From Desulfobacterales bacterium (GTDB taxonomy: Bacteria; Desulfobacterota; Desulfobacteria; Desulfobacterales; JAAELO01): a stretch of DNA of 64,000 bases. The notes below the pieces were generated by a model. That model searched no databases. It was not told the origin of the DNA and saw only the letters and a program-made list of their open reading frames with translations. The stretch covers positions 1 to 64,000 of the forward strand of contig JAAELO010000762.1 of the NCBI GenBank assembly GCA_024226555.1. The letters run 5' to 3'. Numbering within the stretch: the stretch's first letter is position 1; every line of letters begins with the position of its first letter. The position numbers and the translations under genes are program-made. Below, in pieces: positions 3,412-40,931 of the stretch.

Positions 3412-3465
3412 AGGGAACTTCTAATAACTGCCTTTTGACCGAACTACAGCTTATTAGAGGTTCGC
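3412..3465. repeat. Family A repeat, short copy (A1)
   Basis: A 54-bp element with ends AGGGAACTTCTAATAA and TTATTAGAGGTTCGC in inverted orientation. The interior matches, in reverse, the right part of the full-length copies (CTGCCTTTTGACCGAACTAC). Its right end overlaps the 3' end of the OYE gene and supplies that gene's stop codon. Confidence 0.75.
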
Positions 3466-8905: not shown

Positions 8906-9034
8906 AGGGAATCTCTAAAAACAGTTCTTTGAACAAATACTTCGTTTTCAAAAAAGGAATCGCCTTTAAACCCGTAGGCCATTTTTTTTCAGGCCTTGTA
9001 TTTGAATCAAAACTTCAATTATTAGAGGCTCCCT
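8906..9034. repeat. Family A repeat, diverged 129-bp copy (A3)
   Basis: Ends are AGGGAATCTCTAAAAACAG and TTATTAGAGGCTCCCT. The centre is diverged but retains TTGTATTTGAATCAAAACTT, which is the reverse of the usual left interior. Its right end runs into the MBL-fold gene and forms that gene's last codons and stop. Confidence 0.65.
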
Positions 9035-19492: not shown

Positions 19493-19622
19493 GGGAACCT
19501 CTAATAATTAGAATTTTGGATAAAATACAAGGTTTGACAAAAAGTAACGAGCCGATTTTATTACAGTTATTTTTTGGAAATAAAGCCGTATTTCGCTAAA
19601 AGGACAGTTATTAGAGATTCCC
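19493..19622. repeat. Family A repeat, full length (A5)
   Basis: A 130-bp copy from GGGAACCTCTAATAATTAG to CAGTTATTAGAGATTCCC with 15-bp inverted ends and the asymmetric interior (TACAAGG...ACGAGCCGATTTTATTACAG). It lies in the 480-bp gap before the broken glycosidase-like gene, which shows no other feature apart from A/T-rich promoter-like sequence. Confidence 0.85.
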
Positions 19623-35597: not shown

Positions 35598-35685
35598 AAG
35601 GAACCTCTAATAACAACCGTTTTTATAACAGTTATTTTTGAATATAACACAGTATCGCCAAAAGTTTTTTTATTAGAGATTCCTT
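35598..35685. repeat. Family A repeat, 88-bp copy (A6)
   Basis: Ends AGGAACCTCTAATAAC and TTATTAGAGATTCCTT, with interior TTTATAACAGTTATTTTTGA and CAGTATCGCCAAAAG. Its left end provides the GAGG in front of the GTG start of the lipoprotein gene. The following 550 bp to the ferredoxin gene hold only family D pieces (35902-36060) and a further A-like start near 36081 merging into a long imperfect palindrome (about 36120-36178). Confidence 0.75.
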
Positions 35686-40275: not shown

Positions 40276-40405
40276 GGGAATCTCTAATAATTAGAATTTT
40301 GATTGAAATACAAGGCATGAGAAAAAATAACGAATCGGTTTTACAACAGTTCTTTTTTTGAAATAACGCTGTAGTTCGATCAAAAGGCAGTTATTAGAGA
40401 TTCCC
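40276..40405. repeat. Family A repeat, full length (A7)
   Basis: A 130-bp copy with near-perfect inverted ends GGGAATCTCTAATAATTAG and CAGTTATTAGAGATTCCC, and the complete asymmetric interior TTGAAATACAAGGC...ACGCTGTAGTTCGATC. This copy and A5 best define the family. Confidence 0.88.
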
Positions 40406-40656: not shown

Positions 40657-40737
40657 ATGAATGAATTGTCAGAAATGTACTCAATTCCAATTGTTTATGG
40701 TAAACCTACACAAGAAATATCAAGGATTAAGAGATGA
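40657..40737 (+). CDS. Short 26-residue ORF coupled to the selenoprotein candidate
   Basis: It encodes MNELSEMYSIPIVYGKPTQE and then ISRIKR. Its TGA overlaps the ATG of the next gene (ATGA). The segment IPIVYGKPTQE looks like the start of longer conserved proteins, so this may be a truncated gene, or a leader that couples translation. The upstream codons give no ribosome binding site better than AGGGAAA. Confidence 0.3.
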   Translation: MNELSEMYSIPIVYGKPTQEISRIKR

Positions 40738-40931
40738 AATTAATATGCTACTGCTTTAATTACACATATGAAGATATAAAAAAGGATCTGCTTGAAAATG
40801 GCAGATCCACGATTATGGAGATGATAATAAAGGAGAAACAGTTTGGGGGCTGTTCCTGCCATACAAAAAATCCCAGCGGTAAATGATGCCTCCATGATGT
40901 CCGCAAGGTTGTGGATTCAATGAGACAATAG
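40734..40931 (+). CDS. BFD-like [2Fe-2S] protein, probable selenoprotein (in-frame UGA at codon 51)
   Basis: Fifty codons encode MKLICYCFNYTYEDIKKDLL... with CYC at 5-7, GRSTI at 23-27, CSC at 40-42 and NPSGK at 46-50. The frame then meets TGA (40884-40886) and continues CLHDVRKVVDSMRQ to TAG at 40931. Related small BFD-like or CopZ-like proteins end in NPxG(C/U)CLxxV, so the UGA stands exactly where homologs have Cys and would be read as selenocysteine next to Cys52. AAGGAT precedes the ATG. A GNRA-capped stem lies straight after the UGA. The likely role is redox or metal handling. No sel genes are in this window. Confidence 0.75.
40892..40914 (+). promoter_or_regulatory. Candidate bacterial SECIS hairpin
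   Basis: CCATGA pairs with TTGTGG (including two G-T pairs), a TGT bulge follows, then CC-GCAA-GG forms the apical stem and GNRA loop. The loop begins 16 bases after the UGA, within the usual distance for a bacterial selenocysteine insertion element. The stem is short, so support is moderate. Confidence 0.45.

Follow-up and report, generated by a model that had tools for sequence, protein, structure and literature searches.

We identified a short gene whose in-frame UGA codon is, on the strength of sequence comparison, almost certainly decoded as selenocysteine (Sec). The gene lies in a 64,000-nucleotide stretch of a Desulfobacterales genome assembly (contig JAAELO010000762.1, positions 1 to 64,000; hereafter the window). 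In what is very probably the correct overall interpretation, the UGA is read as Sec by means of a downstream hairpin, a bacterial Sec insertion sequence (SECIS), giving a 65-residue stand-alone protein of the BFD/CopZ type, likely to carry a [2Fe-2S] cluster with a redox-active Sec beside it. SelB bound to the AGGU-capped hairpin would bring Sec-tRNA to the UGA. A preliminary description of the locus had proposed a probable selenoprotein, and this is supported by the conserved UGA, the co-varying hairpin, the Sec genes of the assembly and relatives with cysteine (Cys).

The open reading frame (ORF) was found exactly as first described, with a single in-frame UGA: 50 sense codons from the ATG to NPSGK are followed by TGA, then by CLHDVRKVVDSMRQ and a real stop, TAG, at 40929-40931 (Table 1). 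With the TGA as Sec, the protein reads MKLICYCFNYTYEDIKKDLLENGRSTIMEMIIKEKQFGGCSCHTKNPSGKUCLHDVRKVVDSMRQ. The further statement that gene callers miss the gene entirely needs correction, as the ORF is called (P0002, the window's own database entry), but only as a 50-residue product stopped at the UGA.

Conservation of the UGA and its replacement by cysteine

A protein database search with the single sequence returned nothing besides P0002. When 389 genomes of the order were searched in six frames, with stops read through, 134 gave matches, and an in-frame TGA lies within the match in at least 93 of these (tallied among the matches listed). We aligned 112 homologous rows, drawn from the window's locus (L017) and loci L020-L130 (L121 gave none and L051 gave two). 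TGA followed by a Cys codon occupies the aligned site in 102 of the 112; 101 of these rows come from the 93 genomes of the order and one from Geothermobacter hydrogeniphilus HR-1 (L050). The 102 rows were chosen by U then C, and no U without a following C occurs among the ten excluded rows. The latter comprise a duplicate (L049, identical in protein to L023), five broken, partial or diverged rows with no U at the site (L110, L112, L122, L126 and L128) and four with Cys there (L124, L127, L129 and L130).

Residues on both sides of the UGA had been described as conserved in appearance, and they are conserved across the 102 rows, which extend 12-81 residues past the Sec (median 20.5). From 96 core sequences, 81 remained at <82% identity, and 78 of them (L031, L072 and L084 omitted) were aligned with the window protein. 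The invariant columns of this 79-sequence alignment are C5, C7, S25, C40, C42, U51 and C52, where the invariance of U51 and C52 results from the selection of rows on U then C. One genome (G234; L020, L051) contains three UGA copies. Another (G185) contains, besides a UGA form (L091), a diverged second copy (L112, G185:C1:2860600-2860770) with arginine at the Sec site and Cys40 lost, which looks like a decaying paralog.

A database search with the 79-sequence alignment found 290 proteins, 120 of them listed. Residue 51 is Cys in 20 of the 33 relatives that were fetched and tryptophan (W) or glycine (G) in ten (P0004-P0013), and three end early (P0025, P0047, P0099). PF18423, which we take to be zf_CopZ, is carried by 7 of the 20 Cys relatives. 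When one of these, P0020, was used as the query in a search of the phylum, 59 of 395 genomes matched, with a TGA within 56 of the 59 matches; its position was read in the 30 fetched loci. These include 27 UGA forms, six of which (L180, L188, L191, L198, L204 and L206) duplicate rows of the 102, and L200, which did not fit the search pattern. Two of the three matches without TGA, L177 and L178, have the Cys codons TGC and TGT at the site, and the remaining one, from G020, encodes a CopZ-type protein (L124). The UGA sits where relatives have Cys, as had been suggested from family knowledge, and the homolog search proposed as a check recovered both Cys and UGA homologs extending past the site. 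Cys40 was considered as a mark of the Sec forms alone and ruled out, since it is present in the 20 fetched Cys relatives too; by eye, the CopZ-type proteins L018, L124, L127 and L130 are without it.

The downstream hairpin and the selenocysteine machinery

The predicted hairpin starts 12 nt after the UGA. Its stem pairs 40899-40905 with 40910-40916 around an apical loop at 40906-40909, 19 nt from the UGA, and the folding energy of 40887-40920 is -9.6 kcal/mol. The preliminary description was right to place a hairpin at this distance but not to give it a GNRA cap: the GCAA in question consists of three 5'-arm bases and the first loop base, and the predicted loop is AGGU.

All 102 rows are gapless from the UGA onward and provide 100 distinct 40-nt stretches. 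Of the 700 cells in the stem at 16-22/27-33, counted from the UGA, 648 are paired. Double changes number 25, including C18-G31 to U-A in 17 and C22-G27 to A-U in 4, one of these four being that of the window. The maxima in 2000 column shuffles were 635 paired cells and 16 double changes; with the partner arm slid by 1-3 nt, 226-464 cells remained paired and the double changes numbered 0-12. All five inner pairs form in 79 of 100 stretches, and G is found in the first two loop positions in 100 of 100. Codon choice within the hairpin is near-frozen. Inside it, 86 of 88 arginine codons are CGC, compared with 94 of 338 in the upstream part of these genes (p = 3e-36), and the valine codon at nt 28-30 is GTG in 87 of 90 versus 26 of 92 upstream (p = 4e-24); as the rows share kinship, these p-values and the shuffles are indicative only. 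Only 2 of the 7 stem pairs are kept in the Cys-codon loci L177 and L178, compared with five (3 of 27) or six to seven (24 of 27) in the UGA forms of the phylum search, although the residues after the site also differ in L177 and L178, so that part of this loss follows from protein change. L178 has a strong alternative fold. Weighing against a functional hairpin are the modest energies (z of -2.25, -1.46 and -0.50 for 42, 34 and 77 nt, respectively) and the lowest-energy 48-nt fold, from which the inner stem is absent in 19 of the 102 rows (present in 83).

A check for selA, selB, selC and selD had also been suggested, and the window's assembly was found to contain selA, selB in two pieces, a tRNA-Sec with anticodon TCA, and selD. 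One selB piece, at the beginning of contig C855 (L001, C855:1-1821), scores above the cut-off, and an N-terminal piece lies at the end of contig C336 (L004, C336:69474-69686), a split that probably comes from the assembly and not from damage to the gene. The selD gene (L132, G000:C507:40250-41173) itself contains an in-frame TGA, which makes SelD another probable selenoprotein. The assembly comprises 904 contigs with 3.7% contamination, and the window's contig (C761) is not one of those that carry the Sec genes. In the order as a whole, selB (E <= 1e-62) was detected in 329 of 389 genomes. With selB this common, its co-occurrence with the UGA form is uninformative as evidence, and the two show no association (80 of 93 UGA-form genomes versus 249 of the 296 remaining). 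Among the 13 UGA-form genomes without selB at this threshold, nine have tRNA-Sec and five (G037, G094, G169, G300 and G304) have C-terminal selB pieces. No tRNA-Sec was found (E <= 1e-8) in G074, G145, G173 and G300, whose assemblies have 380-740 contigs and are 80-91% complete.

Two other readings of the UGA were weighed. It could be a true stop that ends a 50-residue product, with leftover or regulatory sequence downstream. TGA does serve as a normal stop here (it ends 6 of the window's 43 long ORFs), and four database ORFs end just 5' of the UGA (P0002, P0025, P0047, P0099). We nevertheless consider a stop very improbable given the conserved residues after the UGA in 102 rows, the full-length Cys relatives and the co-varying hairpin pairs. 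Decoding as tryptophan or glycine (genetic codes 4 or 25) is suggested by the W at the Sec site in P0004 and P0006-P0013 and the G in P0005. This is the least plausible reading, and we rejected it on the window's own TGA stops: read-through of the six ORFs concerned adds just 1-17 codons each. Also against it are the 20 of 33 fetched relatives whose protein has Cys at this site and the Cys codons of L177 and L178. The W and G entries perhaps arose on short contigs for which gene callers had settled on code 4 or 25, and other selenoproteins may be hidden by such calls in the same way. In the database entries examined, the gene is either shortened to an ORF of 50-67 residues or given W or G at the Sec site, so the Sec-Cys motif is lost in annotation, despite the occurrence of the UGA form in at least 93 of the 389 genomes.

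Table 1. Positions of the predicted selenoprotein gene and its elements in the window.
Feature	Position	Strand	Basis
Coding sequence of predicted selenoprotein, 65 residues, TAG stop included	40734..40931	+	ORF reading and full-length homologs
In-frame UGA, predicted selenocysteine 51	40884..40886	+	ORF reading, homolog alignment
Predicted bacterial SECIS hairpin, 7 bp, loop AGGU	40899..40916	+	Folding, covariation
Cys5-Tyr6-Cys7 (CxC)	40746..40754	+	Invariant in 79 aligned sequences
Cys40-Ser41-Cys42 (second CxC)	40851..40859	+	UGA rows: Cys40 in 101/102, Cys42 in 102/102
Cys52 adjoining Sec, GxUC motif	40887..40889	+	102/102 UGA rows (rows selected for U then C)
AGGA, possible ribosome-binding site 7 nt 5' of ATG	40723..40726	+	Sequence reading

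Predicted cluster ligands, proposed redox role and gene surroundings

Six Cys/Sec positions are near-invariant (C5, C7, C40, C42, U51 and C52), whereas a [2Fe-2S] cluster takes four ligands, leaving two to spare. In a weak alignment with CopZ, cysteines of CopZ stand opposite Cys5, Cys7, Cys42 and the Sec51/Cys52 pair, and Cys40 is unmatched. This alignment points to Cys5, Cys7, Cys42 and Cys52 as the most likely cluster ligands. The leftover Sec51 and Cys40 would then form a selenenylsulfide/selenol-thiol pair, which may shuttle electrons between the cluster and its target, be it a thiol, a metal or a metalloid. From the sequence, we give this arrangement, with the Cys40-Sec51 redox pair beside the four Cys ligands, roughly even chances. 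With two Cys/Sec beyond the needs of the cluster in only 65 residues, the protein would be a handy test case for selenium beside an iron-sulfur cluster.

Alternatively, Sec51 could be a direct ligand of the [2Fe-2S] cluster instead of a free redox residue. It is one of six near-invariant positions, adjoins Cys52 and follows Cys42 by nine residues, but enough Cys are left without it, and we know of no natural iron-sulfur protein with a Sec ligand, which counts against such a role. We regard direct ligation as unlikely, and equally so the broader proposal of Sec as a natural ligand, or as a switchable one sharing its place with Cys40. If true, it would provide a native selenolate-bound iron-sulfur center in a protein of 65 residues found widely across its phylum. 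Somewhat less unlikely, though still doubtful, is that the gene serves mercury, arsenic or copper handling as a CopZ-like metallochaperone. The Cys form is named a putative metallochaperone in NCBIfam, and some relatives have nearby genes with the Pfam labels ArsR-rhodanese, ArsP, thioredoxin_3, MerR, MerT and SBF, as well as pyridine-nucleotide reductases and P-type ATPases, labelled by eye as MerA-like and Cu-ATPase. Gene families do recur near the loci, but a metal, arsenic or mercury neighborhood was not significantly enriched (22 of 96 focal loci versus 4 of 40 control regions, p = 0.097), and the 22 do not include the locus of the window. The test drew its queries from the focal loci and excluded, for each query, the locus it came from, and L111, L113, L120, L123 and L125 were left out of the 96. 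Neighbor clusters 0, 1 and 3 look like chance shadow ORFs and were dropped.

In the window, the selenoprotein gene stands alone at its locus. Its upstream neighbor, a signal-peptide-peptidase-like ORF, ends 463 nt away, and a convergent phospholipase-D-like ORF lies 8 nt downstream (both named by eye). The gap upstream of the gene holds one pair (40276-40290 / 40391-40405) of an inverted repeat, GGGAATCTCTAATAA, which has 14 matches in the window at <=2 mismatches versus 0.34 expected. Ten of the 14 form five facing pairs spanning 53-130 nt, the others being at 3413-3465, 8907-9033, 19493-19622 and 35599-35684. These pairs possibly represent a small mobile element resembling a miniature inverted-repeat transposable element (MITE).

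Relation to known families

Foldseek returned no match in the PDB at E <= 0.001. A second structural look ranked Bfd at the top, with CopZ sharing third place with ribosomal rows. Bfd (6E6R) is 20% identical to the window protein, whose pattern CxC...CxC...UC departs from the ligand pattern of Bfd, CxC...CxxC. The N-terminal domain of CopZ from Archaeoglobus fulgidus (2HU9) differs in having no counterpart of Cys40, in being longer by a further half and in having Cys rather than Sec. A CopZ-type protein of 185 residues (L018, G000:C495), with Cys-Cys and without Cys40, is also encoded in the window's genome; it follows an RtcB-like ORF and precedes a methylenetetrahydrofolate-reductase-like one (both named by eye).

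Two NCBIfam families share the domain. In NF047645 (CopZ_Nterm_CC, putative iron-sulfur cluster-binding metallochaperone), the window protein matches the C-terminal part, 86-137 of 138, with 56.1 bits, below the cut-off of 100 that the Cys relative P0020 passes (110.2). It is without the N-terminal part (PF18423), and Sec replaces the first Cys of the CC pair. NF045877 (CopZ_Nterm_CU, the Csac_0668 family or form 2) is named a (seleno)protein; the window protein scores 32.6 bits against a cut-off of 190. Its motif is CU, Sec seemingly being second of the pair, in contrast to UC in the window protein.

Judged by its motif, the family appears to be listed already in two reviews. Table 1 of PMC13188914 gives a '(2Fe-2S)-binding protein (copper chaperone CopZ family) form 1' (cd10141, WP_245779778.1) with the motif GxUC, and Table 1 of PMC9312934 lists form 1 (cd10141) without a motif. 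Both reviews cite PMC2398784 (PLoS Genet 2008) for form 1; the main-text passages searched in that paper contain none of the terms 'CopZ', '2Fe-2S', 'BFD' and 'copper chaperone', and form 1 is absent from the seven new families in its Table 4. The passages searched in Kivenson 2021 (PMC8318568) have one, unrelated, mention of 'ferredoxin'. We file the window protein under form 1 because of the shared GxUC motif (G-K-U-C here) and the CopZ/BFD-like domain, a likeness of motif and domain rather than of aligned sequences. As the family is apparently listed already, the gain is not its discovery but the evidence for Sec decoding and the anatomy of the gene.
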